Assembly (NCBI GenBank): GCA_011033025.1
Contig: WFMF01000557.1
Span: 1 to 64,000, forward strand
From: Beroe forskalii
Taxonomy: Eukaryota; Ctenophora; Nuda; Beroida; Beroidae
Direction: 5' to 3'
Length of the DNA stretch: 64,000 bases
Under the pieces are notes generated by a model. The model was not told where the DNA came from. It was given only the letters and a program-made list of their open reading frames with translations, and did no database searches. Positions 3,010 to 60,200 of the stretch are shown one piece after another (the first letter of the stretch is position 1; every line of letters starts with the position of its first letter). Position numbers and translations under genes: made by a program.

Positions 3010-3386
3010 GCTTTTCTAACAACCCCCCTCTAACTCTCGCTTATCTAACAACCAACCCTCTAACTCTAACTAATAACCCTCCCTCTAACTCTCACTTACC
3101 TAACAACCCTCCCCTAACTCTCGCTTATCTAACAACCCTCTCCTAACTCTCGCTTACCTAAAACCCTCTCTAACTCTCACTTATCAAGCTACCCCCTCTC
3201 ACTCCTACTTATCTAACAACCCTCCCTCTAATTCTTGTTTATCTAACAATTCCCCCTCTAACTAACAACCCTCCCCACTAAATCTTCTTTTCCTAACAAC
3301 CCTCTCCTAACTCTCGCTTACCTTACAACCCTCCCCTCTGACCCTTGCTTACCTAACAACCCTCCCCTAACTCTCGCTTATCTTCA
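3010..3386. repeat. Minisatellite (~28 bp unit) overlapping the VAC14 stop codon
   Basis: About a dozen degenerate copies of a unit read on + as taacaaccctcccctaactc plus tcgcttacc. On the minus strand each unit contains AGGTAAGCGAGAGTTAG. The last codons of VAC14 exon 15 (AAGATAAGCGAGAGTTAG) are the first copy, so the stop codon lies inside the array. Most other copies have AG|GTAAGC, a strong donor-like motif, where the coding copy has AAGATAAGC. Confidence 0.85.
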
Positions 3387-6300
3387 AGTTCTGTAGGGCG
3401 TGTTGAGCTTGCACCTCGTTGAAATGACTCAGCATTTCCTTGACTAGTTTGCTGTCTGCTTGCTCCCCGGACGCTGCTTTGTTTCGTTCAGTCCGCTCCG
3501 CGGCTCTTACCACGCCGACACACTCCAAACGATTGCGCGAGGAGCGTGAAGGCTTCGGATTGGGGGAGCAACATCAGAATACCTGAGGGAGAGCACATTT
3601 GTTTGAGAAATACAAAGACCTATCAGTCCATTTTGGGATTCTTCCCGAGTGAGCTGCCAGAGGGATGTATCCCATTTAGACCCGCAGGCTGCAGGCAAAT
3701 GTCTATGCATTTTACACGCCGAGAAAAGCGTCAGAGGGTTCTATTATGACAAATAATGTCTGGGAATATTCGTTTAGGTACACTTAAGTACTTGGGTGAG
3801 TGGGAACCCCGTTATAGAATTCACAGGTCGTGGGCACATCGATCCCACAAAGCATTCCTAAGAATTCAAGTTATTGGTGTCTCGATTTTGTGAGAAACAT
3901 GTCATGGGAAATCACTATATAATATGACAGAGAGGGTGATTATAATCTGGGCTCATTATTAGAAAATTTGGGAGACTTTCACTTTCTGATGGTTCGTCAT
4001 TTGACGACATTGAAATGACGTGGGGCCTCGTATTTCAGAGATTTATAATACTGGATTTGAGGACGATAATCACGAGATTTTTCGTATCAGTTATATCGTT
4101 TAAACTTCAATCTCTTGAGTACTGGATTTGATTGGAGACTCATGGCATATAATCAGGACCCCTACTTATGAAATATAGTTAACGACTCCTACGTTAGTAG
4201 TCGTAACTATATTTCATTCTGTTTAACCCAGCATATTTAGGTTTTAGCGTTTAAATAATGTTGCAGTGGAATTTATTCCAAAAGGTATGATGTAACTCCT
4301 GTCTCGATTGGTGGTCATTGGTCATCTCAGGGGGAAATGGACTGATTGTTGTGAGATGTTACACACTTCCTGCTTCTCTACTTCGCGTATTTGAAATTGG
4401 CGCACTGCCTGTCACGTGTTACCAAATTGACCAACCCCAGGCCCACGGTTTCAATCTCATGTTGGAAAGTCGGATCTAACGGTCTAATCTGTTTATTTGA
4501 TCGGGTATAATTTCAAGGCCAAAAAGGGGCAAATATACTAATATAGATACCTTTTTGTAATCTTAATAAGTGACATAGGTACCTTTTCGTTGAGTTAAAG
4601 TGTCACATAGGTACCTTTTTGAAAGACCTCAATTTTGCAGGTGTACATTTTTGAATTCATTTTGATTTTCCCTTTTGCATCTGTTACAATCTGTAGTAGT
4701 AACATTAATTATCAATAATAATTATCTATGCTTCTATTCTTCTGGATCTATGCGTCTATGCTTCATGATGAACTAAGTTCTTCAGGCAGCAATGCATATG
4801 AAATTATCATTTATCAATCACATAAGTCATCAGACTTCCGTTCATGTTAATATTTGAACTTCACCCAACGATCCACTTCAGGATAGGTCTGTCATAGGGG
4901 CCAAACAACAACTTCTATTAGCTATTCAGCTGTTTAAAGTTATAAGTTGACAGCCATAGCCACTGAAGGGTGGTACTCAGAACTTCAGTAGACATCATAA
5001 TTACCCGGGAAGTCGGAATGGGTTTCAAAATAAAAGGCTGTCAAATAGAGGGTTTAGTTTGTTCTGCATTTCCGAAGAATGAAAATTTTGATTACTATCA
5101 TGTAGCATGAAGGAATCGAATATATTCACCGTTAAAAATCATGCCAGAGCCTAATTCAGCGGTGTAGTATCAAGAAATCAATTTTCAAAATTAAGTTTTA
5201 TAACTGTGTAGTTGCAGGCAGTGACTTTTTCCTCAAAAATTGAAACCAAAACTTTATATCATATTCAACTGTTATATTATATTCAACTTAGCCAGTCTGC
5301 AAAGATAAGCCTGTCAGTAACAGTCTGTCAGCGATGCAAACTCCAAAACGAACAGGACTCTTAAGGACATTACGGACCAGTCAGACTCCTAAGTTACAAA
5401 CCTGCCAGACTCCTAAGAGGTCACAAACCTGCCAGACTCCTAAGAAGTTACGAACCTGCCAGACTCCTAAGAAGTTACGAACCTGCCAGACTCCTAAGAG
5501 GTCACGAACCTGCCAGACTCCTAAGAGGTCACGAACCTGCCAGACTCCTAAGAAGTCACGAACCTGCCAGACTTCGGAAGAGCTCAGGGTTGGTATCCGG
5601 CTGCACCAGTTCCAGACGCAGTGCGGAGAAGACAGGGCTCTCTAAGAGCTGCACGAGCTTGTCCAGCCCGGTCAGCGTCATTTCCGTCATCTGCAGGAAG
5701 TTAGTAGATGACAAGAGAGCATGATAAGTGGTATGTCATTTGAAGACATATTTTTGATCAATTCCATGATTTTGCGGCGAATATAAAAATACGAAATTTT
5801 AATCTTCGATGATTGACTTAGTTAAACATCCAGGTATCCTAGGGGCAGCTAATACGCCATTGGTGACGTATTAGCTCACTCGTGATACCTCGAAATGGTC
5901 ATGAACTTAACCAATCAGCGCGCAAGATAATGATCAATTTGCGCTCTGATTGGTCAATATTTCAAGTGAACTTGTGGGTTAGCAGCTTACAGAGGTGTCG
6001 TGGGTTCGAGAAATGAAAATCTTTCTGAAATTTCCGATCGCGCGGCGCCATGAATGTGCGTGGATAATCTGTAAGATTAGTATTACGTACGTTCAAATGG
6101 CAATCGTGTGAAAATTTCAGAAGGCGATCTCAGACCCTCTTTATTGCCCCGAAATGGTCATGAAATTAACCAATCAGGCATCAACACGCGAATTCACGAT
6201 CAGGCCGCGCCGTGATTGGTCAATTCAAGTGGATCAGTGAGTTATATTCACCTCGTAGTTGCCGAGAGCATGAATTACGTCACTAGCATGGTGGTAGGAG

Positions 6301-9300
6301 TGCGCTATCATACAGAGCGCTATTGTAGACACTGGGTCATGGCACCATGTTGTGTAAAGAGTGTTGAAGACTGCCCCATTTCCTCCTTCCTTCCTGAAAT
6401 AGTGCAAAGCTTGTTAAATTATGACATTTTATTGCAGCAAGTCATAAATTGAACTATTACGATGTTCTGAATGCAGAGGTTTTTCCAAATTCATGACTTC
6501 CTGACTTCCAGGAACAGTTTATGTCAGTAAAGCGTTTAAATCGGCCCAAGCTATCTTTCATCTGAAGGCTTTATAATGATATGGGGACTTATTATGAGCC
6601 CACCATTAGGGGCCATCCATAAAGGACGTCCGCAATGAGGGGGGAGGGGGGAGTCTGGCCAATGCGGACGTTTGCGGACATAGGGGGAGGGGGTGTTTGG
6701 CCAAATGCGGACGTCTGCAGTTATAAATGGAATTTTTGGTCGATTTGACGGCTTTTCACTAGAAAATTGTGAAATTTTATCCCTAAAATTGATGACTGAA
6801 AAGATTTTTAGGAAAAATGCGGACGTCCTTTCGGGAATGCGGACGTTTGCAGACAAGGGGGGAGGGAGGGGTCTAAAATGGCCGAATTTTTGCGGACGTC
6901 CTTTATGGATGGCCCCTTATAAGATTGGGCATTGGTGCGTTATGAATTTTCATTTGAGATGGCACCATAACTCAACGTGATATGTTTATGATCTTGATGC
7001 AGCGAAGGGCATTATTTCGATGCATGCAACTAAACTCTTGAAGTTAACTCTATCTTATAACTGTTAAGTCGGTGAAGTCATCTTTAATCATTCAACTCCA
7101 TTTAATATTTTAAACTATGAGAACTGTATCTACAGCATATCATTTGATATTTTGCTTTGTCAACCTGTCACGCCATAAAAGCATTAAATGGGCCATCTTT
7201 AGTTGCTAAACCTTCCATTTTGTGGAAAGTAAAAGGTTTAGCAGCTGAAGAACAGTTGTTTAATGGCATGACCACGACAGTGCCTTAATCACTGTCTGAA
7301 AGATAATATTTTTGTTTTCAATCAACCTGTAACGTATAGCACATAATAACTTAAAGCTTGATAGCTCCATGGTCGGGATTTAAAAGTTTGAACATGCCAT
7401 TAGAAAGCACTTTAAAATAATATGCAATTTGAACTTAGTAATTTTCTGAGTTCTGATTTTCTTTGTTAAACTCGGATATGAAAGTAAATTAGACTTTAGC
7501 AGTTAGATTTTAGAGTATAAGTTTGACGAGACATCTAAGGTGATAAGATTATACCTGCGCCCGAATCATGCTTAATCAATGCAATTTTTGGAAAAGACTG
7601 TTCTGATGTTTCAAGAATTGAGAGAATAAGATAAAACAATTAGACATATCCCATGACCACAATGCGGTAGCCTCACTCCATGATAGGCAGTTTTTATACC
7701 CACCAATAGTTACCTTCCCTTGTTGTTGTTTGGAGGATGTCTGTTTGGTGGCTCCCTTCCTCTTAAGAGTCTCTCTGAGAGAGGCAAGGTGGGGTGAGGT
7801 TAGCAGGATCCAATTCAGGTACTGTACCACCAGGGCCGTAAACACGATATCTGGTTCTTCTGCCAGCAGGGAAGCTAGACTCGTGAAAACCTGATGGTAT
7901 ATCAGAAGTGGGTTGGTGGTTAATAAAGCCGGGGTGAAACTCTTTGCAAGAGTATTATTAAATCATTCCAGCAGCTTTAAACATAATTTCATCATGATGT
8001 GCAACAAACAGTGTGGAAATAAGGACAAGTCGACATGCATCTAAATGGGACCAAATTGCATTTGCATTAATTCTTCAATTCTACTAAAAATGGTTTTGAA
8101 ATCTGCCGTTATTAACTTAATAAGAGACATTAAATATAAATTTGCCTAAATGGCCCATTTATAGAGAGAACGCAAGAGTAACAACAACCATTTCATTTAG
8201 AAATGGTTGTACAGTTACTAACTATACAACCATTTCTAAATGAAATGAATTGCTACCAGTATCACTAATTCGCGGGGGTTAAGTGCAAAATTCCTCAATC
8301 GAGATTCATGATGTGACATATGTGAAGCATTTTTCTTATACTTAGAATTCACAATTCACATGGATTAAGTGGTCAGTTGGTCACACGCAGTGAAAGTAAT
8401 TGGTGTAATGGTATCAAGACTGGCTCGTGATCAACAGATCCCAGGTTCGATTCGCTGCCATTCCCACTGTGACAGTAATTGGTGTAATGGTATCACGTCT
8501 GTCTCCTGATCAGCAGATCCCAGGTTCGACTCCCTGCCATTCCCACTGTGCTAAAGGTGAGAGAAGTATCTCAAACTTAAGCAGTCACATAGTTCACTCA
8601 GGAAACTGTGCAAATATGCAGGTTACGTGAGGAATGAGGAGCTGTCCATTGCAGCGAAGTCTCAGGCGAATAAAGAATGGATTACACAGTCACTGGCAAA
8701 ATAGATAAACTTGAATCCTTTGGTTCATGTCAATGGCTGTTCCAGCTGTTGGCATAAAAAACCTTGAGAAGAAGTCAGTTATCACCTTTTCACTATCAAC
8801 ATGAGCACACAGGGTCTGTATTATGAAGGAGCACCGTCTGTCCAAGAGCTTCTCATCGTTCTTGAACTTTGCCAACAGGCTCCGCAGGAAGTTCTCGAAG
8901 TTTGCTTTATCTTGGTCGGTGTTTTGCATACACCTGCCGAAAGTTATATTTCGTTTATATTGGTGCCAATATGGAAAGATTGAAGTAGAATTACAGAAAT
9001 TTGCTACCCGGTTGAGTTTATCATCATCGTTAATTAATTGCCTCTAATGCGTAGTACTAATATGTTCTAAAGTTCTAATAACTGGTTGGTAACACCAAAT
9101 TGCGCGTCACGTACAATAAATAACTGGTGTCATGTATTGTCAAAATTACTAATTTAAGGTCACGCATAAGAAATAGGTTGCATAATCAGAAAAGCAGGTT
9201 AAAGTCGAGAGTGGTGCCATTTAATCAAGATTTTATAAGTGGTTAGTTAGTGGTTCTATGATCCTTATATAAGGTTCTTAATCCAAATATCGCTCTTAAT

Positions 9301-12300
9301 ATAAGAGGTTCAAGTTTAAACTTAAAATATTCACATCTCAAGTTTGAACGTTTTACAAATATTCACATAAGGGATTAAAGTTTAATAAGCTTTTAAAATA
9401 TTCTCACATTGCAGAGAGGAGCTGAATGGACAGCACCACCACCCCATCATGAGGATCTGATACCGTTCTGATGACAGCCGGGAAGATCTTATCATGTTCC
9501 ATCTTCATTGGTACGTGAGAGTGGAGGGACCGGATCCACTGCAGTACGCAGATCTTAGTGGTCACGGAGATCTGAGAGGGGGATACGTACTCTCTACCTG
9601 GAATAGAAGGAGATTTGAGAGGGGGATACGTACTCTCTACCTGGAAAAAAGAGGATATTTGAGAGGGGGATACGTACTCTCTACCTGAAAAGAGGGGATA
9701 CGCCTCTACCTGAAATAGAAGGAGATTTGAGATACGTACTCTCTACCCGTCCTGAATAGACAGAGGTTTGAGAGATGGGGATAAGTAGTCTCTACCTGGA
9801 ATAGACAGAGGTTTGAGAGATGGGGATAAGTAGTCTCTACCTGGAATAGACAGAGGTTTGAGATGGGATACGTAGTCTCTACCTGGAATAGACAGAGATT
9901 TGAGAGGGGTATACGTACTCTCTACCTGAAATAGAAGGAGGTTTGAGAGGGGGATACGTACTCTCTACCTGGAATAGACAGAGGTTTGAGAGATGGGGAT
10001 AAGTAGTCTCTACCTGGAATAGACAGAGGTTTGAGAGATGGGGATACGTAGTCTCTACCTGGAATAGACAGAGATTTGAGAGGGGTATACGTACTCTCTA
10101 CCTGAAATAGAAGGAGGTTTGAGAGGGGGATACGTACTCTCTACCTGAAAATAGACGGAGGTTTGAGATGGGGATACGTACTCTCTACCTGGAATAGACA
10201 GAGATTTGAGAGGGGAATACGTACTCTCTACCTGGAATACCTTACGAGACATATTTAAAAGGTACGAAATTTGGGGATTTTACGAAAAAATCCCCATATT
10301 TTCGTTCCCCCAAAATTTCGATCCCCAAAATTATTTCCCCAAATTAGTTAATTGCGGGTTTGTGATTTGACTAACAGTGCATAAAATATGGAATTCCCAG
10401 ACAAATTTCAATAAGTATATCAGTGCAGAAGAGTTAAAAATATCTTAAATGCAGTAATTCCTAATAAAACCTCCTACACTCGACTCGATGAAAGGGATCT
10501 TGTACTGGAAATTCTACTACTTCAATCACCTCAGTAATATTGGCCTTTCTGAAGTACTGATTTATTCCCAAAAGTTACCTTATTTTTTTCGAATTTGAAA
10601 AAAGGTGAAAATCACCTGATTTAATTTGGGGTACGAAATTTGGGGATTTTTGAAAAAAATCCCCATATTTTCGAACCCCCAAAATTTCGATCCCCGGAAT
10701 TATTGTCCCATGTTATTTTGTCTTGTAAGGTAGACACAGAGATTTGAGAGGGGTATACGTACTCTCTACCTGAAATAGAAGGAGATTTGAGAGGGGGATA
10801 CGTACTTTCTACCTGAAAATAGACGGAGATTTGAGATGGGGATACGTACTTTCTACCTGTAAAAAACAGAGATCTGAGAGGGGGATACGTAGGAAAAATC
10901 TTGCTGTAAAAATAGATAGAATTTCAGTTGGGGATCTGTTATAATTTCTTTAAAATTTACGAAATTTTTAGAGATGGTGAGTTTGAGGCACGAACCGTTA
11001 CTGAAACGCGCTGCCCAAACATCCTATACATAACATAATATGGTAACATAATATGGATGTTTATTCAAACTCAATATTTCTAAAGGGAGGTTCGATATAA
11101 GTAATAAAATTCAATATTTGAATTTTTGATATTTCAAAATCTTATTTTATATTTCTTGAGCATCGTCCACATTATGTGCATAAATTGTAGACGATTTTCT
11201 TTGCAATATACTAAGAGAAGAAGGGAGCGGTTTGCTAAACCTGCTAATTTTACTTTAATAAGTGGTGTTTACGGTTATTCTCAAATCTATATTTACATCG
11301 TGAATATTACATAATTTAATATCGCAAGGAAGTCAACGTGTCCAACTGAGGTCCAATAACATGTCTCAACAAAGTTTCAGAAGCCTGAAGTATCCGTTAC
11401 CTTAAAAGTAGGATGATTTAACGCTCTTAAACCTATGTTAGTATGTAGTTTAATTTAGAAAGTAGCACCATCTACAACAGAGTTAGGTATGATAAAGCCG
11501 ATTTTTGCAGGGATGGCCTAGAACTGTTTATAACGATTCATATCCGGTTTCAGGGGCTAGTTTAGGGGCTCAGGACACCACAACAGAAAGTTTAAGATCA
11601 ATGAGGTCTTTTTTGCCGAAAATTTGAATAATGAATATTTGATATTTTCAATTTGTACATTTTATGTAATGTACAATGTAAATTTTACAGTTTAACAGTG
11701 TACATCAATTATTGTACCATGTACAATTCCATGTTTAATGTACAATGTTCAGTGTAAACTTTACACTACAAGTCAGTGTATAATGTACACCAAGTCCACA
11801 AACCGTTGCTGTCCTTGTAGGAGGAGGACGGCACCACGTGAGCCAGCAGTACACTCAACATGTCCGTTATGTCCATGCTGTTCAGAGTGCCGGGGGTTTC
11901 TGTCAGCAGTGCTAGCAGCTTCTCCTGCGGGAATAGAGGTTTATTACGCAGACAGGAAAACTAACTTGTGATAATAAACTTGATTTATTAGGGAAGGATA
12001 AAATAAGATGATTCACTTATATTTAAACCATTATGTAAATCAATGCATTTCGAAGTCCTCAACTATTGAAGGTAACAAATATTGAAGCTCTTCAATTGAG
12101 ACTTGTTTTAGTCGAATCACTGTAACTTTATTCTGTATTTTGTAGATGAAAATAAAATACTATTCTAAAAGATGAACCTTGGTACGGACGGCAGTCTCGA
12201 AGATGTCCGTTTTGTTCTGCTGCTCTGCGAGACATGGCAACACAGAGTTGAGGATACCCGCACTGTAATCGTTGGGCCTATTACTGCCAAATAAAACAAA

Positions 12301-15300
12301 ATTATTGGACATTCTGGCCAACTTATATCTCAAATTCTTGTTCTCCAAAATATGGAGGTGAGCCTCCCTTAAAGGTGCATAATTCTTAATAAGTAATCCG
12401 CCGGCCAAAAAATGACGTAATTGACGGATTATTAGTCCGCCGATATTACTGAAAGTGGCAGGACCTGCAAGAGATCCAGCCAGGTTACAGGATAGTTCAT
12501 TTAAGTCTCCTTGTCTATCTGTAACTATCTCTGAGGGTCTGGCATGGAATAACTGTCGTTTAGGTATTCAAAGGACTGTGTAAGTGTACCAGCGCGGAAA
12601 GGACTTAGTCAGAGTTACTGCGCAGAAAGTTCGGTACTTTTCTACTTTTCTAGCTACGGTACGTTCGTGTGGCTCAGCACATTCGGAACATTTATAACCG
12701 CGCTTTGTTCCATTTCATTCGTTGCCATCAAGCAACCTGGCACCCATGTGTGGCAATAAAGATCAATGGTGTCACTTTTCACGCTTACTTTAACTACTTG
12801 AGTCTACCGCATGAACAATATTTCCTTAATTTCAGCTGTGTCGTATATACCGGGTATTTAATGAAAATTTGTCTTGGCTGAAATTCCTGCTAAAATTGAT
12901 CTTAGCGGACACTATAAATGTGATGGATGATGGACGTGTATGTTGTAATTGGGCCCTACGTAAGATGGACTCTAAATCAGATGGCACCCCTGAAATTTTC
13001 TCATGAAACCTTTTAGTTTTTAGACATTCGCGTCACTTTAATGCAAACTGTCTCCCGAGTAACTGATCAAAATAATTCACATGTTGCCTAAAATAGCTGC
13101 CATCTATTACGATAAACACAAGAATTTTAAATATGTCTATAAATATTACATTCTATGACAAATACTAACCGAGTGATGCTTCATTAAAAGTTTAAATGGT
13201 TAAATAGTCGCACTAGGTTATTAAATAGGAGTTTGACTGAAGGAAAGGTGTGAAGTTTAAAAGATCGAATAATAGTGGCCTTAGGTTATTAATAGGAGTT
13301 TGACTGAATAAAAGGGGTGTAGTTTAAAATATTAAATAGTGGTACTAGGTTATTAATAGGAGTTTGACTGAATAAAAGGTGTGTAGTTTAAAAGATTAAA
13401 TAGTGGTACTAGGTTATTAATAGGAGTTTGACTGAAGAAAAGGGCTGTAGTTTAAAGGATCAAATAGTGGCACAAGGCTATTAATAGGAGTTTGACTGAA
13501 TAAAAGGTGTGAACTTTAAAATGGTTGAATAGTGGCACTATAAAGGTACAAAAAAGGGGTGAATAAAAGGGGTGTAGTTCTCAATATGTTTTGGGTGTTA
13601 CCACCACGTTCGGGCTGAAAATTACGACAGCTTGCTGGACAACTTGAAAAGTGAGAAGGTTGATTAAACATGTAGTTTGAGACTCATGTAGTGGGGGTTG
13701 ACACCCACTAAAAACCCAGATTAACTGTTCATGGGCTCAGTTATTCAATCAATTACACGTGTTGGGTTGGTATAAAGTATTAACTCCTCGAGCCTATGCA
13801 TGACAAACTCCTCGAGCTGATATTCACGATTCAATCCTCGGACCTTTACATGATTAACTCAAGAGATATTCCTCGGAATCAGCCCTAGCAGGTGATTCCG
13901 CTGCTGAGGCGGTTTAAACATAATACGTTTACACGTACGTTGCAAAGACTACCCGGTATACTATTTACCAACCAAGTAGCCGTGAACAATGCTGCACACA
14001 GTAGTATCAGGCATGCCTCACCACCAGAAAACAAATCCTTATCTATGTTTGGGAGGACTGGCAAACAGTCCTTTCAGTTCAATTCATCGCCCAAATTTCC
14101 TGGTTTCCAACTAAGAACGTCCCATTTTAAAATTTATGGTAAAAATTTTCTCATTTGCATCAAATAATTTGTAGATTTCCCTCATAATTTCTCAAGAAGC
14201 TATTAAAAGTCAGTTAGACCTTTACTAGGTGAGATCTGTAAAACTCAACCAGTCTAACTAAGTAACTGAGACAGTAGTTGGATCACTCTAAAAATGTAGG
14301 AATATGTACCTGTACGATGTGAGATTAGCCCCATCTAACTCCAGGAATCTCAGTATCCAGATGAGGGCTATGAGCTGAGTTGAGGGGTTGCTGCTCTGAC
14401 TGTGTCCCAGCAGCACGGATATCATAGCCTTGAAGTTGGTCGTGCTGTTCTTCCGGTTTATCTCCATCAGGAAATCGTTAAGCACCTGTCAGGGAAGTGA
14501 TTTTATTAAGAAGGTCCACAAATTATATGTCTTGTTAGAGTGTTGTCAGGGAAGGGATTCTATAATAATATAAGACGCATTTTGCGTATGTTTTGTTAGC
14601 TGTAGGTATATTATATCTATGTCAACCGGAAAGAGCTCTGTTTAGATGGATGATTCCATTCAACGCTAAATTCTCTGCATCTTCGAATTAGGGGCCATGG
14701 GAGCTTCAAAAGTTCAAAGCGTTTTATAATTTATGAGGATAATTTGATTTTAATCTATTTGAATATTTATAATTTTCCTGATTGAATATTCCTAAATTGA
14801 ATATTCCTAAATTGAATATTCCAGTTCCAAAATTAGATATCGGCCTCGAAGACTCCCATTTCCACAGTCCATGACAGTGAATTTCCACTGTCATAAAATA
14901 AAGAAGTATTGTGAAATAGGTATTAAGCCGGGGACTGGACCTTCAATCTCTAAATCAATATCAAATAATCGTTACATAACGCTTATGTGAAATAAGGAGG
15001 TAGTTTGGTGAAATACCTTATTGGCATTTACTTAACTGGCTCTTAAGGACAAAAATGGCTTCGAGATTTTTTTCCAAAGGGCCGGTTAAAAAGGCCGGTT
15101 AAAGTGGGGCCGGTCAAATTAAAGGCTAGTAAATTTAGGTCAGAGAAAATAGTTATGAATTGCCTTATGCAGTGTTAAATTCTCTTGAATGTAATTATGT
15201 AGTTCACGATAATGACCTAAATAGGCATATCAGACCAGGATTTGGGTCTTTTGGTGCAATCTATAAAGTACAAATGGGTTTTAATGGCCATTTTAGAGCA

Positions 15301-18300
15301 TAAAATCCTTCATCCGGCGACCGGCAGAGAAATGTTTTGTCCAAGGGGTCGGCTAAAACGTTTAAAAGTGATGCTTTTTTTGTCCATTGGGCCGATTAAA
15401 AAGGGCCGGCTAAAAAGACCAAAAAGGTAACCGAGGTATCTTCTGTGAATACTTAAATGGAGTTGAAGCACGCATCTGTTGCAACAAAGCACGTACCTGT
15501 TGCGTCATAGCACGTACCTGTTGCGTTATAGCACGTACCTGTTGCGTTATAGCACGTACCTGTTGCGTTATAGCACGTACCTGTTGCGTCATAGCACGTT
15601 ATAGCACGTACCTGTTGCGTCATAGCACGTTATAGCACGTACCTGTTGCGGCATAGCACGTAATATCACGTACCTGTTGCGTCATAGCACGTACCTGTTG
15701 CGTCATAGCACGTATCTCGTCCTTCTGGTCGCCCAGTATAACAAAGAGCCCATCCAGCAGCATGGGCAGGTGTGAAACCAGCTCGATATCCGGCACTGAA
15801 CTGAGCAGCTGTATCCAGCTCACAAGGTACTGTCGCACGTTGTCGTTGTTAGTGTAGATACGCTCCCGAACCTGGGGTCAAGTAGCCCGACTTGAGAGGT
15901 AGATAGTATATTATATGCCTACAATCTCAAAAGTACACGTTTATTATCTTCAAAGTAGACGTGAACTATCTCAATTCTCAGAGCAGACGTTTACAACCTC
16001 AGTAGTTGAGGCAGAAAACATACAACGTTCGAATACAAGACGTAACCTAACACTTCAGATCCTAAGATTTCCGATCACACCTACCAGTTTCACGAACAAG
16101 TCCACATCGAAGATATTTGACTCCGTGACGATATCCTTTATCAGCCGATCTAGCAGCTCAGCACCGTTCTTGACGTGAGTGTCAGGGTCACAGATCAATT
16201 TGCTCACGCCATCAAATATCTGGAATAGGTGTTATCATTTCTCCATATCATTTCACAGTATCGTTTCACTGTATCATTCAACTGTTTCATTTCAATGTGT
16301 CAAATATTATCTTCCCGACAGGAATTCTGCGAAAAGTTAATTTGCACGCCCATCTAGAAACGATTTAACAATACGTGACCGGTTTACCGGATACCTATAT
16401 ATTGGATTCTATATGGTGCGGAATCATTTCCTGAAGATTTTAAACAGAATCATACTTTAATATAATTATCGGGCACCCATGCAATCCGATTTATCGATTT
16501 CGGTGTCTGCATATTTCTTATGTACCTTAAACTGCCGGATGACGCAACTCTTTTTCAAAACATCACATACATAATATTATCATGCACATAGCAATGTAGC
16601 GGTAAATCAATGAAAATGTTAAGTGTTTCACTCCGCTTGTTCGAAGGGCGCGGAAGCAAATGTTAAAGTTCCACAAGGATAGCAATCGGTTTTGACACCA
16701 TCACTATGAAATTATTTATTTCAAAGCCCTTGTGGGTACCCAACCGTGGGTTTTATACAAAGTAAGTCTTGTACAGCGTGCAATTCCTTGGCAAGTTTCA
16801 TTTAATATTATCTCAGTAAATTCGTATAATAGTCTCACGCACATTTAACATAGCTCCTCTGCGAATTACATCCCTTGATATCTAGCGTCTCTCACATACA
16901 CTTTATAAGGATGCTAAATGAAAAACCCATCTATTACATGAGCTCTATTTGATAAATCCGACACCGCATCAATGTTATATCTTCTCTACATCAACATTAT
17001 ATAAAATAGATCTTTGCTAATTCACATGCCAAGTTATCATGCGTCTTCTTTGTATCTTCATGTAATTTATAGCCCCAAGATGAATATTATTCACAGTCGT
17101 CCCCAAACCACAGCTACATATAACCTACGTGTTACAAATATGCAGAACACGTTCGACTATTATGAGTAGTTATTGGTCGTGTAACAGAGTGGAGTGCCGA
17201 AGGCACGACACGATGTTACACGACCAATAACGCTCTTATTTTTCGCTATGGAGATAAGAGGGATCGATTGCCGTCAAAAAAGTTGACCTAAATGCATGCA
17301 TTCATGCATTTTCATTCACGTGACTTAGTGCACCAATAGCAGTCCACTACGGACCTCCCCTGACCGTGTCTCTCGTGGCATTTGTGCTTCTACTAGTGAC
17401 TTCAATGCTGCTACATTACTGGCTGATATGTCTGACACGTCAGTTCCACGTGCTACGCATAATTCACTCTTGAACACGTGACCGGTCAGGTTGAATGGAG
17501 GAGAAAATACGAGATTTATGGAACGGCAAGCTCAGGAGGATCAGCTGCGGTACTTGTAATTGATAGGAAGTAAATGCAGTCACTTTTTACGCTTGCTCTT
17601 CACATTTGCTGCTGACTACTTATGTTTTAATAATTTTCGACACCAACGTTCACAGATAGTATCAATCATGTGCGCTCAACTACATACTTACATAAATCGT
17701 TTGATAGAACAAAAACATGCTAATTAAAATCTATTTGTCTCATGTCTATTGTAGTATTTCGCAGGGCCGTAATTCCCGGGGGGGCTAGGGGGGCTGAAGC
17801 CCCCCCAAGATTTTTGAACTGACTCGAAAAAAATTATACCTTCCAATCAAAATTTACAACTTAACTGATTTTTTAAACTTTAGAGAATGATATTGATACA
17901 TCATTCGTAATTATGAAGGTTTCAAAATCATATCAACACTTCATATAGGCCATTTTGTTGGTTCATCATGGTATTTTTCATCTACAAACGACAGTACAGA
18001 AGTGCTGTAATCAATCCATGTGGCATGTCTCCATAGTTAGTTGACAAAATGATAATAAATAGTTAGAAAGTAATAACTAAATATCATGATCATAAGCTCA
18101 TAACATGTTCATAGATGAAAGTGACATACTGGAATGGATTACTGTAGAATATGATCATAATAATTTGACGTCTAAAAAACCAACGAGTGCTCTGGGATAG
18201 CAAACTTGGATCATCAGTAAGACACGGCTGATTATGAGGCACAGTATGTTCTACACAATTCCACAGGTTTTTAACATGAAAACTTGCTCAAGACTAGTCA

Positions 18301-21300
18301 AAGTGCCATTGTCTGACACTCATAATCTTCACGATTCCTTCCCATTTCTGTTGCCCAAAAATTCATTCTCAGGCATTCAAAAACCCAAAAATTTTCCGGC
18401 TCCGCCCCCATCCCCAGCCAGGGCTCTGCCCCTGACCCCGCTGGGGCTGCGCCCCAGACCCTGCCTCCGGGGCTCCGCCCCTATTTAGCTCCGCCCCTGG
18501 ACCCCGTCCTCCGGGCTCGCTTCGCTCGCCCAGCCCCCCCAACTCAAAATTGAGAATTACGGCCCTGGTATTTCGGTCATCTACACCATTCGCAACGCCT
18601 ATGATCGTATCCATGAATGAATGAAGTTCCAATTATGACGTCAAAGGATTAGGAATTAGGGTGTTTTTAAAAAGCAATCCTACGTGATCACTAAGTCTTA
18701 ATTTCGATACGTTTTCATAACCCGCCGACGAAAAATTCTAAGTATAGCGTTTCGAGATTCTCCTATGACGCAATTATGCTCTTCCTCTCTCGTGGGGCAT
18801 CCAGAATATTCATATTGGCCCTCATCCAAGTTTTTTACTCCATAGATAATAGATATCATCATGATTCACGTACATGGGTGCAGTACCTTTTTCTTTGAAA
18901 TAAGCTCATGATCAGGTATCAAAGTAGCAAGTTGATAACATACGACCGCCTATTTTCCGTGCGTGGATATTTGTAGAATTGCTATAGTATTTTAGTTTGG
19001 AATCGGATTATTCTGCTGGGGCAGGTCAAGTCTTAGTCACGTGACACGGTCAGGTGACACGTTCACGTGGTAACAGCCTACCACAAGGTTCGTCACGTGG
19101 TCACCACGTGACCTTTAGGTGGCTACCACGTGGCAGGCACGGCCAACAGAGCGAAAAATAAATTACTTTAGCGAAAGCCATTCATAACATATCTAAATTT
19201 ATCACGGCTCCACTCTTCGAGTGTCGCGTGATAAATTAGATATAAATATTTCGTAGCAAGCTACTCAATATTTATATCCTATTACATACTCATTTCATTC
19301 GTATGTAATAGAGATATGTTAATTCCTGGTCTTTCGCTAAAGTACATATCATGTAATTTCGGGGTTCCTTTGAGTTTACTAGTCATGTCTGTAAACTGTA
19401 AAGTACCAATATCAAGTTTAAAAGTCTTTGATGAATTAGCAGTTTCCTGGGAGATACGAGATACAATGCTACTTCAGAATTACCAGGCTTCTTCCATGCT
19501 GTTGCCTGACCAGTAACAACACCAAGACTGAGTCATGTGATTCAAGTAGCATTGATACGCTTCATTCATTGGTTACTAAGAGTTACGATAATTTAGGTGC
19601 TAGTAACTGCAATTCAGTTGTATCGAGTTAGTGTCAGTTATGGGATTCTGAATTCTCCACCGTTATCGAGAGAGTTCTTTACGCGCATCATCCTACTCTA
19701 GTTTTTATCCGAGCTTGTAGTTTTCATTTGTCCTAATGAACTATTGGAACTGAACGAAGTCGGGAAACATGAGGGTTACGGCATTTGGGGATTTGGTTTC
19801 CAGAAACGAGACGCAGCTACGGCCACAACATGAAAACGCCAAATCGATTTTTTACCCACAAGTGGCTACATAAATCGATCAATGAAAGGATTGATGAATA
19901 CACGCATTTTACAGTGCGCGCATTTCTTTTCCAATAGACTTTCTGTCGAAAATACAGTATTTTACACGTTTTTATCGATCGATCCATGTGCAGAAATATG
20001 GTTTACCAGCGCCATCAAATATTTCCTTGAAGAAGAGCAGCATGGAGGCCCGGCCCACTTTGGCAATGTTGTACATGCTCTCACACCCAAAGTACCGGAC
20101 CCGACAGTCAACGTCGATAAAGGACTTGAGCACCGGAGGCACCTGAAAGAAGGGACAGTTAGGTTAAAGAAAGGGCGTGGCCTGATATTTGAGTTGGAAT
20201 AGTGGGTTGCAACTCATACCTCCCCCCCATTGAGTTGGGTTAAGGTTGCAACTCCGACTTCCCCCTTTGAATTTGGTTAATTTGTTGCGATTTTTTCGGT
20301 TTTATTGGATCGTCTCAAAAGCATATGTCTAGAAAATGTCGATAAATGGCTGATTAAATGCTTACGCGGCATAATGCACACATGCAACTTACCATGGCAA
20401 CTTGCTTAGAAGATAATACATTGTATCTAATTTTTGGCGTATTTTTTAGTCTTTGACATTGATTACAGAAAATCTAATCCAAAAAGATGAAGTCCACTGA
20501 CCAGTTCTCCTATTTCTGCTATCTTCCAGCAAAAATAGTGGGATTTCAGCTCCATTAAGCCGTGATAGCGTGAAACTTAAATATATTAACGTCAGTTCGT
20601 TTCTGGGAATAGTGATAAATTAATAAATCATGCATATCCGGTCATTTCTTGGTATGCAACTCACCTTAGTCATCTGTTGATTGTTCATTCACAGCGCAAT
20701 TTATTGAAAATCATTTATTCTCAATTGATTGCAATGAAAAGCTGTAGTTAAATTTGTAACATTTACTTCCTCCGAAAAATACCATAAAACAACTTAATCG
20801 TTCGCGTTAAATAGAAATCAATCAGTTTCTAAGCATTAAATACCTCAGTCGACAGACAGTAATGGTTTCTAGGAATAGTAATAGACCCGGAATTAAAAAT
20901 TCCTTATATGAATAAGGAATATGTGGTGTGAAACACAGCGTTACGGGGATTAAATTGTGTTTTAATCTGCAAACCACAGCACAGAAATGCCGTGATTATA
21001 GATCCGCTCATACCTCTGTGTTATAAATGGCAAATATGAAATGCAGGAAAATCACGCATTCAGATTCAGGTTAGTAAAATCTGGAAATGTGGGGCAGAGG
21101 AACGGACGAGGGAGACAAAACTTCAGGGGGAGACCGGAATTTGGAGAACAAAATGAAAATCGCATTATGATGCGAATCATAATCTCTGAGACCCTCAGAG
21201 GGCTGCCCAAAACACCAGCTCTTCATTAGAGGTAATAGTGAAATACTTGAGTCTTGACAATTTCTTCGTATAGCTGCTTACCAAAGTAGTCATCGTTGAT

Positions 21301-33105: not shown

Positions 33106-33127
33106 GTTATCCGTTACTGTTACTAGG

Positions 33128-33565
33128 AGTCCACTCACAGACTCCACCTCACTTACTGAAATAGAAGCATTAGAACTAGGAGTACACTCACAGACTCCAC
33201 CTCACTTACTGAAATAGAAGCATTAGAACTAGGAGTCCACTCACAGACTCCACCTCACTTACTGAAATAGGAGCATTAGAACTAGGAGTCCACTCACAGA
33301 CTCCACCTCACTGACTAGAGTCCACTCAAACTCATCAGAAACATTAGAACTAAGGGAGTCCACTCACAGACTCCACCTCACTTACTGAAATAGGAGCATT
33401 AGAACTAGGAGTCCACTCACAGACTCCACCTCACTTACTGAAATAGGAGCATTAGAACTAGGAGTCCACTCACAGACTCCACCTCACTTACTGAAATAGG
33501 AGCATTAGAACTAGGAGTCCACTCACAGACTCCACCTCACTTACTGAAATAGGAGCATTAGAAAG
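33128..33565. repeat. 53 bp minisatellite fused to the 5' edge of VAC14 exon 1 (~8 units)
   Basis: Unit on + is ggagtccactcacagactcc, acctcacttactgaaatagg, agcattagaacta. On the minus strand it reads CTATTTCAG|TAAGTGAGG...TCT|GTGAGT, with an acceptor-like and a donor-like motif in every unit. The exon-proximal unit is in frame with the VAC14 ATG (codons SEVESVSGLL lead into it), so the upstream sequence may be exonic. Confidence 0.9.
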
Positions 33566-34989: not shown

Positions 34990-35275
34990 AGAGTGGTGTC
35001 AGTGTGAACTGGTGTCAGTGCGAACTGGTGTCAGTGTACACTGGTGTCAGCGTACACTGGTGTCAGTGCAAACTGGTGTCACTGCAAACTGGTGTCAGTG
35101 TGAACTGGTGTCAGTGCGAAAAGGTGTCAGTGCGAACTGGTGTCAGTGTAAACTGGTGCCAGTGTAAACTGGTGTCAGTGTGAACTGGTGTCAGTGTTAC
35201 TGTGTCAGTGTTAACTATGTCGGTGTGAACTGGTGTCAGTGAGAACTGATGTCACTGCAAACTGGTGTCAGAGTT
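34990..35275. repeat. 15-16 bp minisatellite upstream of the lectin gene
   Basis: About 18 units of aactggtgtcagtgtg, between the divergent VAC14 and double-CTLD genes (about 220 bp before the latter's ATG). It may influence the shared promoter region; no TATA box is evident. Confidence 0.9.
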
Positions 35276-35495
35276 AGTCTCATTGCATACAATAGAATCG
35301 AGCAGTTGTTACACCATCCATAACACAAAGACTCACAACTTCACTACACTGCCCATTTTCTAAGTGTAAACACCCATCGCTGCATCACTTCGCCTTTTAA
35401 CACCCAATGTTTTGCACTGTTATTTCCTCTTTCGTATCACTGAGGAGTGAGTACCTATCATGATTTCCTGAGTCTCAGGTTTCCAGTTTTTCAAG

Positions 35496-43300: not shown

Positions 43301-46300
43301 AAAGAGAGGGGAGTTGAGTGGGGAAGAGAGGGGAGTTGAGTGGGGAAGAGAGGGGAGTTGAGTGGGCAGTTGAGTGGGGAAGAGAGGGGAGTTGAGTGGG
43401 GAAGAGAGAGGAGTTGAGTGGGGAAGAGGGGGGAGTGGAGTGGGGAAGAGAGAGAGTAATTGTAGAGTTGAGGGGATGTAGACAGGGGAGTTGTGGGACT
43501 GTAGAGAGGGGAGTTGAGTGGGGAAGAGAGAGGAATTGTAGAGTTGAGGGTTACAGAAATGGGAGTTGAGGGGATGTAGAGAGGGGAGTTTCGGGACTGT
43601 AGAGAGGGGAATTGAGATGATGTAGAGAGGAGATTTGCAGGGTTGTAGAGAAGAAAGGTGCGAATGAAGAGATATTACAATTTAGAGAAGTTGAGGCAGG
43701 AGAGAGATGAGCTAGCTCATAAAAGTTGAGACATTTTAAATTTTTAATCGAAATTCTGCAATATCTAATTACTACAAAAGTACAATACAAGAATACAATC
43801 ATCAAGCATCTACATTACGAACAGTACCCTCGCTAATTGTGGCCTCACTAACCCCTTTAGTTCGTTCTTGAAAGCCCTGACTATGAGGATTCTGAACTGC
43901 TTCAAGACACTCTTAGTGTCCATGATCCGGGGCAGAGAATCGAATGTGATGCTCAAACCAGAGTCATTGTCGGTGATCCTGCTGCTTGAAGGAGTGGGTA
44001 AAGAGTGACGGAATAATAATTGAAACTAAATCAAATCTACGATTCAGCCACGTGATCAACTTAATCTCGTATCGACTCCGCTCGTATCGATTCCATTCGA
44101 TTTTTTAAAATCATTTAATTTTACATTTTTACAAAATTAACAATCCTCGATAAGTCTAAGAATTCTCCTCACCACTACAGCATGACAGACCCCTAACTCT
44201 CGAACAACTGAATAACATGATCCTAAAGTCAGAGTGACATACCCCTTACTCTCGAATAACTGAATAACATGATCCTACAACAGACCCCCTAAAAGTTTTC
44301 GTACCTGCTCCTGTTGCCTGACTCGCAGGACTCACTCTCCACTGAACTACCCATACTGAGTTTGGAGGAAGTGTACATGTTGGTTGTAACGTCTCCCAAT
44401 GCTTCCTGCGGAAAATAAAATAATAATATATGAGACTGAGTGAATTATGCCTCATGCGGAATGCGGATAAGAGTTCGAGGAAAATAGGAGGATTAGGAGG
44501 AGATAAGAGGAGGATTAGAAGAGGATAAGAGGAGGAGAATAGGAAGAGGATGTGGAATAGATAACACCTGGAATTTCATTAATTTAGAAGGCAGTAGGCA
44601 CTTAACTATAGTCTACACATATAGTACATATGTGTATACACATAACATAAGTCAATTATATCAGAATACAAAAGGTGACAATGCGTAGTAAATAGCTGAT
44701 GAATCTAAATATTTAAATAGAGAAGCAGTCCCAGTATCCAAAAGTTTAATCATTCGGCATTCCGAACCTTGAAGAAGTTGAGTAGTTTAGTAAGTCGCTC
44801 CCTGCTGACGGCCTCATTCTCCTTATGCCTATGGTCGATGGTGGTGAGGTCGATGTAGAAGTCGCAGGGGTTGGTGAGGGGCGGGCAGGGGTATCCAATG
44901 CTCGTGAAGTACTCCAACATAGCCCGCGCCTGCCCAGCGTACACAACGTGACCGTCTGCGAGGGGTATCTTTGTTAGGCAATTAAGCAAGGTCAAGCTGC
45001 TATTATAAGATAGTATTTCTGTGGTTATAAAAGTACCAAGGCTAAAATACTGGGTATATAAGTATTAAGTATATGAATAAGATAATACACTGGATATACA
45101 GAATAAGAGGAAAATACACAGAACACTAGAAATTAGAATACTATGACTAGGTACATCGTTTATGTGAAAAAACTTGATGATCACTTTCCTTCTTCAAAAT
45201 TTTGAAATGAAGAACAAAAGGGCAAACCTGATAAGATTGTCATGAGATCAAATAACTCGAATATATCTGATCTGGGCTGGTGAATGGTGAGAATGACTGT
45301 TCTCCCAGACTTAGCCAACTCAGACATTGTCACAATTAGATGGTGGGCAGTGAAACTGTCCAAACCTGATGTGAGGTTTACTATTTAAGGAATGTAACAG
45401 CAGAATGAAAATAGGATACAGTAGGTTTTATAAGTTTTGAAAATAAGCGCAAGTAAGAAACAATTACGTTGTTGTTTCAATGGTTACGCCTCTTGATTTA
45501 ATAATTCAAACATACGTTTGCCCCAAAATTCGACAATTGTATACTTTATAACTTTCACAAATACAATTAGCTTACCAGAGGTAGGCTCATCCAGGAAAAG
45601 GATGTGAGGGTCCATGAGCATCTGCACCCCAATGCTGACCCTCCTGCGCTCTCCTCCACTACAACCCCGGACCTCCGGACCACCCACCTTGCTGTTGCTG
45701 ACGTGGCGCAGCCCCAACTCACACAGGACACTGCAGGGGAAGTCTGATTCATGTTAGTTACTGACTATAGCCGAGATTTTATAAAAAATAATGGTAAAAA
45801 ATTGAAAGTTGTCACACAGGGCTCCTAGTTATATAATGCAGATGACTGAATGCAAACCTATTGACACGCTCTAGCTTTTTCTCCTCAGGGAATGAGGATG
45901 GAAGTTTGAGTTGAGCCACAAAGAGCAGTGTTTCCCTAACTGTGAGGTTCGGGAGCAGGTAGTCATCCTGCCTAACATATGCTGATATCTCCTTCATCAT
46001 TTCCTTAGTGCGTCCTTTGTTGTTAACCAGAACCTGACACATTCATAGTACTAGACGATATATCAAGTAATTGCATACAATTCATAATTTTGTACTCTAT
46101 CCCACCACACTAATACACAACTTTTCCATAATTACTCACCTCCCCCTCCACATATCCATTCTCATGGCGATTTGCAATGACATCTAGAAGAGTTGTTTTG
46201 CCACTGCCGGAGCCTCCCAAGATAGCCAACATCTGGCCACATTTGACTGTGACACTGACATCCTTCAAAATAACCTTGCAATCTTCTTCTTGAAGATTAT

Positions 46301-46664
46301 TGCATTCTATAGATCGTAGTGTTTGCTGTGATAAGGGGACCTGAAAGTTTATAGGTTTACCATATAGGTACTGTTACTGCCTGCATTGCTTTTATGAGAA
46401 CAGTTCAAGCTATTCAATTGGATCTGCATGTTCATTGTTCATTAACTACATAGTTGCTTTTAATTACCTATTTTGCCACTTTGAACTATTTTAACCTAAG
46501 AAAAGTTTTTCTTGAAATGAGATATTCATTATTGAAATAAGATATTCATTATTCATCACCTTGTAAAATAAATGTCGAACTGCAACTGTCTTCTTGCTTT
46601 TTTCTTCCAAACCTATGTCAAGTGAGTTCTCTGTTCCACAGCTGTCATCTCTGCTATTATGCAT
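40323..46664 (-). CDS. ABCG8-like sterol half-transporter (sterolin-2 type), 13 exons
   Basis: ABCG5/ABCG8 family half-transporters pair to export sterols across the plasma membrane. Exons: 46560-46664, 46140-46340, 45858-46033, 45576-45730, 45228-45365, 44768-44955, 44305-44405, 43853-43981, 43120-43229, 42627-42851, 41008-41158, 40662-40829, 40323-40462; about 661 aa (human ABCG8 673). Walker [10 protein letters not shown] (exon 2), [19 protein letters not shown] (exon 3), signature [12 protein letters not shown] and Walker [11 protein letters not shown] (exon 4), H-loop TIHQPRSD (exon 5), [17 protein letters not shown] (exon 6). The six-helix membrane domain spans exons 8-13, with [19 protein letters not shown] (exon 10) and C-terminal RFINQKPKK (human RFIKQKP). 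Closest to ABCG8, but unlike human ABCG8 its Walker A is canonical. The start is the first ATG after an in-frame stop. The exon 8/9 phases disagree by one base (extra G at the donor); exon 8 has an NAGNAG acceptor. Confidence 0.92.
41370..41680. mobile_element. Hairpin-rich foldback element
   Basis: It contains several inverted pairs: accgtgcgcaataa / ttattacgcac, cggccttcggcc, and atataacacactggggcc / ggccctcgtgtgttatat. No ORF. It lies in the ABCG8-like intron between exons 10 and 11. Superfamily unknown. Confidence 0.55.
43231..43640. repeat. 22 bp minisatellite built from the ABCG8-like exon 9 acceptor tract
   Basis: About ten regular units of gggaagagaggggagttgag tg, then degenerate ones with gtagagagggga. 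On the minus strand the unit is CAACTCCCCTCTCTTCCCC. The copy touching the exon reads CAACTCCCCTCTCTTTCCCAG, the real polypyrimidine tract and acceptor. Confidence 0.92.
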
Positions 46665-54830: not shown

Positions 54831-54831
54831 G

Positions 54832-55930: not shown

Positions 55931-55995
55931 ACCAATGTTTCATATGCAGTGATACATATATTCTGAAGTTTTCTTAAGTGCATCTTATACCTTAA

Positions 55996-56053
55996 TTGTT
56001 TATGTATTATGTGTATTGCATAGTTATCTAACTATGCGTAACACATAATACAT
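55996..56053. repeat. Inverted repeat, ~25 bp arms
   Basis: ttatgtattatgtgt..gcatagtta is complementary to taactatgc..aacacataatacataa. Confidence 0.85.
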
Positions 56054-57293: not shown

Positions 57294-60200
57294 ATGCCAA
57301 CAAGTACTGCCATTGCAAATAATCTCATTCGTGATGTCTGGAGAGATAATCTAGAGGAGGAGTTCGAGAAGATTCGCCAACTTGTCCCATCATACAATTA
57401 CATTTCCATAGATACAGAATCATTGTTTATTTTACTATTTTTTTCTTTGTTTACTTGATAATGGCATCTCAATTAATTAGTTTATATCAATTGATTTCTA
57501 TTGAAATTAAGAAATTATTCACTCTAGCACAGAGCTTAAGCTCTGAAGTTCAGCAACAAACAACATTCGCAATTTTTAACCCGTTTTTCAAGAACACAAT
57601 CTAACTGAACATTGCATCAAGTCAGTGATCACAGATCTAAATACCACCTACAGATACAGAATTCCCTGGAGTTGTTGCACGACCTTTGGGGGAGTTCAGG
57701 AGCAACAATGAGTACATGTATCAACTTCTCAAAGTCAATGTGGACATGCTGAAGATCATTCAACTTGGTGAGTTTATTGTTCAATGCTGCCCCGAACCTT
57801 TGAAAACATTTCGAACATGGTTAAAATAATTGTAGTATAGTTGGAGCATTATTAACTGTCCTCAAAATTATGAAGTATCAAACAATATTATAATCATTGA
57901 TGAGTAAATAATTTCAAATGTTTTAGGCATTACACTAGCAGATGAACAAGGAAAGCACCCTAAGGGGCCATGTACATGGCAGTTCAACTTCAAGTTCAGC
58001 CTCAACGAAGACATGTACGCTCAGGTTAGGGACATGATCCTTTTTATTTTGCATTAAAATATTTATAAAAAATAACTAAAATGTAAGACCTCTGTCACTT
58101 TTTAGAACTGATTGCTCCTAATTTTAAACATCTGGTATGCCACCAATAGGTCAATATAAAATATTCCAATCCAAAAATTACACTGTATTATAATAGCACT
58201 CCACCTTGTTATAACCTTACAGGACTCCATTGACCTACTCAACCGCTCTGGTATTCAATTCAAGCGCCATGAGGAAGAAGGGATTGACGTTGATGACTTT
58301 GCCGAGCTTCTCATTCCTTCAGGATTAGTCCTGGTCGATACTCACTTCGTGAGCTTCCACTCCCCCTACGACTTTGGATATCTCCTCAAAATCCTAACAT
58401 GTAAAGACATGCCTGCAGATGAAGAGGTTAGAGTTATTTAGCATTTTGATAAGTGAATTTGGAGATTTTGTTGTACGTTTATGATAACATTCGGTTCTCA
58501 GATTTTCTCAACATGATTTGATTGATATTTATCGTGATAATTTGATTTTGTAGGCAGTGCAAGATGTCAACTTAACTAGCTTTTAGCTTTTTATCATTAA
58601 CATAATATTATCATATCTAAATACTTAATAAATAGTGTGTTCTGTGTTTTAATAATTTGATTAATCAAATAGCACTCTCTCTCTTAAATTCGCTCCTTCC
58701 TTGCTGGGAACCATGATAAATTCTTCAGTTGATATACCTCATGACATACAATTTATCATCAAAACTGAAGGCAGATAGGTACTGAAGTACTGACTAAATG
58801 TAACAAAAATCATCACGTCATTATGATTTTCGAAAATTTGAAAGGTCCGAATGTTTTTTTTTCTATTAAAGTATGAACTTTCTGTTTCATAGTTGGAAGA
58901 TCATCCAACTATTTATCGTTTTCTTATTCTACCATATTTTGAATACATTATGTATTCTTCAGGAGTTCTTCGAGCTACTCAGATTGTATTTCCCTATTGT
59001 CTATGATATAAAGTACCTCATGAAGAGCTGCAAGACGTTAAAAGGGGGCTTGCAGGTGGGTACTTAGTTACTTTAATATTAACTTTTCATATTAACAGGC
59101 CTTTGGGTAGTATAATATTAGGAGGTCTACTCATTCAATAGTTCATATCCAAACTTTTCTCCAACTTGTCTCATATCAATAATATCAGTTTTAACTTTTT
59201 AATATAGTACTTATAACTGTTGATTATAGTCAAATATATTGTGATAGTCGAGAGTTTTTATGTCCAGTTCAACCTTAAGCGCCCCACCAAATATTACTGA
59301 TTTACAGGAAACAGCTGACCACCTGGAAATTGAACGGATTGGTTCTCAGCACCAGGCTGGCTCTGACAGTCTCCTGACATCCTCAACTTTCTTTAAAGTG
59401 AGTAGTCACTAGTCTCGATCTCCTAACTTCCTCAACTTTCTTTAAAGTGAGTAGGTCTCCTAACTTCCTCAACTGTTTTCAAAGTGATTAGTCTCCTAAC
59501 TTCCTCAACTTTCTTTAAAGTCAGTAGGTCTCCTAACCTCCTCAACTTTCTTTAAAGTGTTTAGGTCTCCTAATTTCCTAAATTTTCTTTAAAGTGATTA
59601 GGTCTCCTAACGTCCCCAACTTTCTTTCAAATGAGTGCGTAACTTCCCTTAAGAAACTTTTAAAGTTAGAAGCCTGCCTTATGCCCTTAAAAACTTTAAT
59701 AGTCAGTGGTCACATACAACACTCAAAGAATTGATAATGGCATCATTTTAAATAATGAGCGATAAATCATTCTTTGTAACCAAGTTTAGGTAGTTACCCA
59801 GTTACCAAGTTTAGTTATTCTTAATGCCTGGCATTATATGAAATGTTTGTGTGGCCCATCCAGGAAATGCAGCGGAACATGTTGCGTTGAACATCTTGCG
59901 CGGAATTTATTCTGTAATGTTGCAGAATCTAGCCATGAACTTACACAATCTTTTAAGATTCGTAATTCTGAGCTTGCGACCGATTCACATTACTACATTA
60001 ATGATAAATATAAATTATCAGTCACGTACTGTTTTCTTTGTAAGCTTATAACGGTAAGCTACCTTAGGAGGTGTATTTATGTGGAGTAAAATTTTGGTGT
60101 TCACAAATTTGATGGGTTGTAATTTGGGGATCTTTCTCAAGTCATTACTCTAGTTAAAATATGATAATGACGTCATTTCGAACTGTCATGGTGGGTAAAA

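Follow-up and report, generated by a model that had tools for sequence, protein, structure and literature searches.

The DNA analysed here, called the window, comprises bases 1-64,000 of contig C644 in an assembly of 216.1 Mb and 1134 contigs, and our subject is a set of minisatellite arrays in its genes whose repeat units copy the edges of exons. The VAC14 gene (3367..33156, minus strand) was identified by tblastn with human VAC14 and with the Mnemiopsis leidyi protein P0121, together with a Pfam match to Vac14_Fab1_bd; the homology model has 15 coding exons and a probable acceptor in the 5' untranslated region (5'UTR). A CNOT7/8 gene (57294..60508, plus strand) with seven coding exons was likewise modeled by homology using tblastn, and nine exons of an ABCG-like transporter (42625..46340, minus strand) were read from the sequence and from pieces matching Pfam ABC_tran and ABC2_membrane. 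The best match to VAC14 was P0121, an annotated Mnemiopsis protein (82% identical), followed by P0122 (61%) and by cnidarian proteins near 43%, and CNOT7/8 was 99% identical to protein P0001. Judged by its sequence, the window is DNA of a ctenophore near Mnemiopsis. P0001 and P0122 come from contigs of 1.4-2.2 kb, and since the corresponding genes span 3 and 30 kb here, we infer that these two contigs represent spliced transcripts.

The initial annotation had placed edge-copying arrays at VAC14 exons 6, 10 and 14, probably at VAC14 exons 1 and 15, at ABCG exon 9 and at CNOT7/8 exon 6. The arrays were delimited using Tandem Repeats Finder (TRF), reading of the sequence and exon positions from homology. 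The results showed that units containing both exon-edge and intron-edge bases are present at VAC14 exons 6, 10 and 14 and at CNOT7 exon 6. At the VAC14 exon 6 donor (exon end 15695), the unit of a 21-bp array (15467..15714, minus strand; exon-edge copy 20/20) consists of the last 20 exon bases and the G of the GT, and at the exon 14 donor (exon end 5564), the unit of a 27-bp array (5370..5573, minus strand) consists of about 10 exon bases and 17 intron bases, with a CAG|GTTCGTGAC-like junction recurring in about 7 repeats. The 43-bp array at the exon 10 acceptor (9566..10239, minus strand; exon start 9597; exon-edge copy 20/20) has a unit in which about 11 intron bases with the acceptor AG precede about 32 exon bases, and copies of the start of exon 10 are visible as tblastn matches. 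TRF detected a second block of this array at 10739..10891 (minus strand), and the two blocks are divided by an insertion-like segment of about 500 bp (10240-10738) with inverted arms (35 nt, 83% complementary), resembling the insertion of a small mobile element into an array already present. In CNOT7/8, the end of exon 6 (59369..59397, plus strand; exon end 59397) was found by reading to match the repeat unit (exon-edge copy 19/20), and a 37-bp array (59419..59636, plus strand) follows this donor copy after a 13-base spacer, each unit having about 29 exon bases and 8 intron bases. In addition, a 53-bp array (33122..33563, minus strand; exon-edge copy 20/20) probably repeats the VAC14 5'UTR acceptor of the exon with the start codon, whose first base would be 33156.

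The other two places named in the initial annotation did not hold as copies of a splice junction, and neither array has units with both exon-edge and intron-edge bases. The degenerate array of about 29 bp at VAC14 exon 15 (3008..3383, minus strand) is not at a splice junction, because it begins over the stop codon (3369-3367) and the codons just before it; the C-terminus encoded there reads NLKISES, as compared to NLKLSEN in Mnemiopsis. The same exon contains a frame break relative to Mnemiopsis at 3473-3592, seen as two overlapping tblastn frames, which represents a frameshift or an assembly error. The 22-bp array at the ABCG exon 9 acceptor (43231..43651, minus strand) reaches no further than the A in the acceptor AG (43231), and its units copy just the pyrimidine tract, with zero exon bases. 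The TRF periods at the seven named places were 21, 43, 27, 53, about 29, 22 and 37 bp, and the conclusion that the units differ in sequence and length and did not come from one mobile repeat was upheld. An introner or mobile repeat was accordingly rejected as the source, since the junction units differ in both respects and the exon 6 array matched only itself in the 216 Mb assembly, in a search that skips simple repeats. Reading of the sequence likewise bore out that several units (VAC14 exons 6, 10 and 14) contain CAG|GT, a motif usable as both donor and acceptor.

To place these arrays against chance, array boundaries within -60 to +30 of exon edges were counted in the window. The results showed that 7 of 59 edges had such a boundary, the expectation from 5000 random placements being 1.41 (p = 0.001; TRF score of at least 60 and at least 2.4 copies), and two other settings gave p = 0.0096 and 0.0008; one of the seven matches (16233-16302) is no junction copy, and the figure is biased upward because the window was chosen for this feature. 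A second test, which uses no repeat finder, sought the last 20 exon bases in the adjacent 500 intronic bases at a match of at least 17/20. Here 4 of 57 usable edges had a copy, whereas all three controls gave 0: a 20-mer located 45 bases into the exon (0 of 57), the reverse complements and the introns of other contigs. This test misses VAC14 exon 14 because each unit holds too few exon bases (about 10), and the ABCG array was likewise missed.

Exon edges were also sampled outside the window, in DNA chosen by exon matches to the myosin head (78 rows), UCH (50 rows) and protein kinase (135 rows) families. The 119 rows counted (78/78 myosin, 21/50 UCH and 20/135 kinase) provided 211 internal edges, 97 of them confirmed by a neighbouring exon. 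The choice of the kinase rows and the extra myosin stretches preceded inspection of their DNA, and the 21 UCH rows were listed after the repeat table had been seen; rows without sampled DNA, complete single-exon domains and some rows with internal stops were dropped, and some stop-bearing rows were kept. The sampled DNA amounts to 222,139 bases outside the window and 286,139 bases with it, and because arrays cover 6.1% of these 286,139 bases, the birth of arrays must be common. Outside the window, array boundaries fell within -60 to +30 of 14 edges out of 211, in comparison to 5.98 in 2000 simulations in which arrays were allowed to overlap exons by up to 60 bases (p = 0.0015), and across eight settings of this test p ranged from 0/2000 (<0.0005) to 0.065. 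In the setting of -45 to +15 with a score of at least 60, the 10 edge matches comprised 7 in myosin, 2 in UCH and 1 in kinase rows; the edges are not fully independent because some loci are near-duplicates, most matches lie in myosin genes and the edges are coarse. The exon-edge 20-mer test found copies at 7 of 210 usable edges, one of which (C225:1041854) is a duplicated exon; inner 20-mers and reverse complements both gave 0, and pairing with introns of other contigs gave 0.03%. When the threshold was relaxed to 15/20, copies were found at 9 of 210 edges, and these three controls gave 2, 1 and 0.41%, respectively. A match at C539 reached 16/20 only and is a pyrimidine-tract repeat. Together, these data indicated that the junction-array effect is real, genome-wide and modest.

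By eye, junction duplications with roughly 10 or more exon bases were counted at 9 of 211 edges, or about 4%. Five of these lie at myosin acceptors: a 34-bp array at C225:1033093, a 25-bp array at C580:1236260, a 198-bp array at C29:5452, two copies of a 44-bp unit at C163:297484, and a two-copy junction duplication on C262 with a short-unit array between the copies. The short array (C262:219678-219912, L075) has a unit of about 7 bp, CATTATA, and looks as if it had grown inside the junction duplication. Two further edges belong to USP genes, with a 55-bp donor array at C581:514628 and a 30-bp array on C514 that was read by eye, and the remaining two to related kinase loci on C1048 and C214 (88% alike), both with a two-copy duplication of an acceptor junction. 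Outside the counted edges, we found a 37-bp donor array of about ten copies in a USP7-like gene on C180, a 37-bp donor array of three copies on C29, a junction array on C209 and, on C248, a donor array at a kinase exon whose best structure match is NEK1. The NEK1-like unit occurs in two blocks about 11 kb apart, at 400124-400943 and from 412219 to at least 414958, the second being at least 2.7 kb long. Units with both exon-edge and intron-edge bases were thus seen outside the window on C225, C580, C29, C581, C163, C180, C209 and C248. When pairs of similar segments were compared, no junction array was present in both members except for the C1048/C214 kinase pair, and 8 kb of C177, a possible counterpart of the C29 arrays, held no such arrays. 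For the USP7-like gene, no transcript of the same species was among the 88 matches listed (43-69% identical).

The probable explanation, in our judgement, is neutral growth of junction-spanning tandem duplications, of the kind called mirages in amphioxus, within existing introns of a minisatellite-rich ctenophore genome. A short tandem duplication would by chance have spanned the exon/intron edge inside an existing intron, the copy beside the exon would have kept serving as the splice site, and the other copies would have turned intronic and then grown and diverged as an ordinary minisatellite. Such duplications would be tolerated like intronic ones at both donors and acceptors, because one intact site remains, and both kinds of site are hit (donors at VAC14 exons 6 and 14, CNOT7, C581 and C180; acceptors at VAC14 exon 10, C225, C580, C29 and C163). 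The duplications, we infer, arose by slippage or unequal exchange, and the arrays would persist because they are tolerated.

The age of the junction copies bears on this proposal. Mnemiopsis VAC14 reads AMTQQVLNDF, TGREFTSPPQISVTTK and FRSLAGILML across exons 6/7, 10 and 14/15, which are the same edges as those beside the arrays here; P0122 has the same joins at exons 6/7 and 14/15, and the CNOT7 relative P0001 reads FFKMRRLYF across exons 6/7. No residues were added or removed in the relatives' proteins at VAC14 exons 6/7 and 14/15 or at CNOT7 exons 6/7. Since these joins are ordinary, the copy in the exon is taken to be the older one, and the exon-proximal site to be the one used in the relatives. 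Among the myosin rows, paralogous exons approximately share two intron positions, one near profile position 376 (8 rows from 8 contigs) and one near 29 (4 rows), so that these two array-bearing introns look old. These observations count against the view that introns are being gained here through tandem duplication of genomic AG|GT segments, a model accepted elsewhere (PMC3443670) and proposed for amphioxus mirages (PMC3087553), with which the CAG|GT carried by several units would agree. In addition, 5 of the 6 splice-site cases in the window have the array at one end of the intron, with other sequence also in that intron, rather than at both ends. We therefore regard intron gain as very improbable here, and the high rate of new introns expected in the initial annotation is not supported, in view of the flat array coverage over the 211 edges, the lack of splice likeness in arrays as a class, the one-ended arrays, the ordinary junctions in relatives, the old-looking myosin introns and the neutral look of the splice dinucleotides.

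This last point was determined on the intronic copies of nine arrays, in which changes affected 10/174 splice dinucleotides, as compared to 199/2841 other positions (p = 0.64). As the dinucleotides vary like other bases, the pattern is that expected of unused copies. Alternatively, the extra splice-site copies might be retained because they have a function, serving as backups, decoys or regulated alternative sites. In favour of this, every counted dinucleotide is intact in 4 of the 9 arrays (0/16 changed at VAC14 exon 14, 0/14 at exon 1, 0/20 on C180 and 0/6 on C581), whereas 5 of 22 are changed in the array of VAC14 exon 6. Judged from the sequence, splicing at the next donor would run into a stop in the case of VAC14 exon 14 and of CNOT7, and would add seven in-frame residues at exon 6. 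Retention for function thus appears quite improbable, in view of the stops and of dinucleotide changes over all nine arrays that match those at other positions.

An assembly artefact, in which the assembler inflated or invented the repeats, was likewise considered. The Vac14_Fab1_bd family matches only C644 in the assembly and no second haplotype of the window was found, which, together with the frame break in VAC14 exon 15, would be compatible with such an error; however, array copies have diverged by 1 to 16% (nine arrays), the arrays lie on many contigs, and the two-copy stage is common to the two kinase loci that are 88% alike. We give this explanation hardly any credence.

Several results weigh against neutral growth through tolerance alone and bring in a different possibility, namely that splice junctions are preferred seeds, with transcription or splicing (R-loops, breaks) or the junction sequence itself raising the local rate of duplication. 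Pure tolerance of random duplications predicts no excess at edges, and the boundaries there are about twice random (14 versus 6.0 outside the window), although the simulation allowed 60-base overlaps with exons; this excess therefore conflicts with it, and the corresponding numbers in the window are 7 versus 1.4. Around the 97 confirmed edges the array coverage is not flat, being 5.7% at 0-30 bases, 6.9% at 30-60, 14.7% at 200-300 and 1.3% at 500-700. The argument from shared introns is itself weakened by a second paralogue that has a junction duplication at one of the two positions: near 376, C225 has a junction array, C262 has its two-copy duplication, a different one at about the same edge, and C173 has an unrelated array 19 bases off, with no array listed within 60 bases of the acceptor in the other five rows; near 29, C580 alone has an array. 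Finally, tandem pairs of the donor word CAGGTAAGT at a distance of 6-36 bases number 177 versus 19 for its reversal, the single words occurring 1734 and 1365 times in the genome, respectively. A few huge arrays (C122, C248) dominate these 177 pairs, the first 100 listed of which fall at 13 places by an eye count, and the 19 reversal pairs fall at 6 places. Seven of the 13 places, selected after their units had been seen, were inspected; 2 lie clearly at coding exons, 1 is a further C248 block and 4 have no obvious exon by eye. The word count leans toward some junction preference and does not settle the question.

Other results speak against preferred seeding. Over the 211 edges, array coverage is 5.0% at 0-30 bases, 7.8% at 30-60, 8.2% at 200-300 and 6.7% at 500-700, with no peak at the edges, and enrichment by coverage was rejected since arrays cover the near-edge bases no more densely than the deeper intron. 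From this flat coverage and the boundary excess it follows that the excess lies in near-edge boundaries, and the association of arrays with exon edges proposed in the initial annotation thus stands for boundaries (14 versus 5.98) and fails for coverage. Taken together, the 48 arrays outside the window did not resemble splice sites (p < 0.05 for donors in 5/48 and for acceptors in 2/48), and neither did those away from known edges (donor 2/30, acceptor 1/30), as scored versus mononucleotide shuffles of the unit with splice matrices from general knowledge. The boundary excess also falls to p = 0.065 in one of the eight settings, and the coarseness of the edges, the predominance of myosin and the non-independence of some paralogous loci apply here as well. 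A modest junction preference is thus suggested but not proven; we consider preferred seeding possible though unlikely. The stronger proposal, that ctenophore splice junctions are true hot spots of minisatellite birth through transcription- or splicing-linked duplication, with a few per cent of edges affected and arrays ranging from two copies to dozens, is rather doubtful. If it were true, the lineage would offer a natural series for watching whether duplicated junctions become new introns. Neutral growth of junction-spanning duplications within existing introns remains the reading that we prefer.

Other features of the window include an open frame with a C-type lectin domain at 35472-36632 and an open frame at 22184-22789 whose similarity to a reverse-transcriptase zinc-binding domain is weak and lies below the cut-off. 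Two 79-bp tandem copies at 8390-8550 look tRNA-like by eye, and a tRNA scan of the window using ARAGORN at bacterial settings called none, these copies included. A dispersed repeat at 33997-34517 shares 524 bases at 94% identity with a stretch of C725. In addition, a dispersed minisatellite of about 16 bp with the core TGGTGTCA occurs at several unrelated places and is unlike the junction arrays (window 34994-35271; C225:1030936-1031795; C863, L037 378-606; C177, L102 6606-6977; C179, L107).

In a limited literature search, no paper pairing ctenophores with minisatellites was found, and the junction minisatellites that we encountered were confined to a handful of lancelet genes and to human segmental duplications. 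What is new here is the phylum and a first estimate of the rate, about 4% of sampled edges. Occurrence at roughly this rate in a ctenophore suggests a process that is not a lancelet oddity, and the many staged cases, from 2 copies upward, allow one to examine if the additional splice sites ever come into use. It also calls for caution in gene prediction, where a gene finder may pick the wrong copy of a repeated splice site.

Tandem repeats have been reported to mark 13% of the genome of the ctenophore Hormiphora by TRF (PMC8527503), and a minisatellite is reported to be over-represented near alternative splicing regions in C. elegans (PMC4039745). Tandem genomic duplication of AGGT segments is described as a leading model of intron gain (PMC3443670); the duplicated AG|GT segment is alike in that model and in the arrays here, but the arrays here lie inside existing introns. 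Human segmental duplications hold internal tandem repeats that lie at exon-intron boundaries and from which novel introns can arise (PMC2812944). Like the ctenophore arrays, these are minisatellites, with units averaging about 30 bp, and some of them sit at exon edges; they differ in that transcripts support both the novel introns and retained repeats, the ctenophore arrays having been examined as DNA. The closest descriptions concern the amphioxus mirages, in which tandem units spanning exon edges were already known, which were reported not to interfere with regular splicing, and for which intron gain was proposed (PMC3087553; PMC3902484). As in the ctenophore, the units span edges at both 5' and 3' ends, are unrelated between genes and in many cases contain AG/GT. 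The amphioxus units measure 10-72 bp in Adh3 and 150-160 bp in globins (PMC3087553), whereas most of those described here, from the phylum Ctenophora, fall between 21 and 55 bp and a single one has 198 bp. Changes in length between haplotypes were shown in amphioxus, whereas the ctenophore data provide a rate over sampled exon edges.

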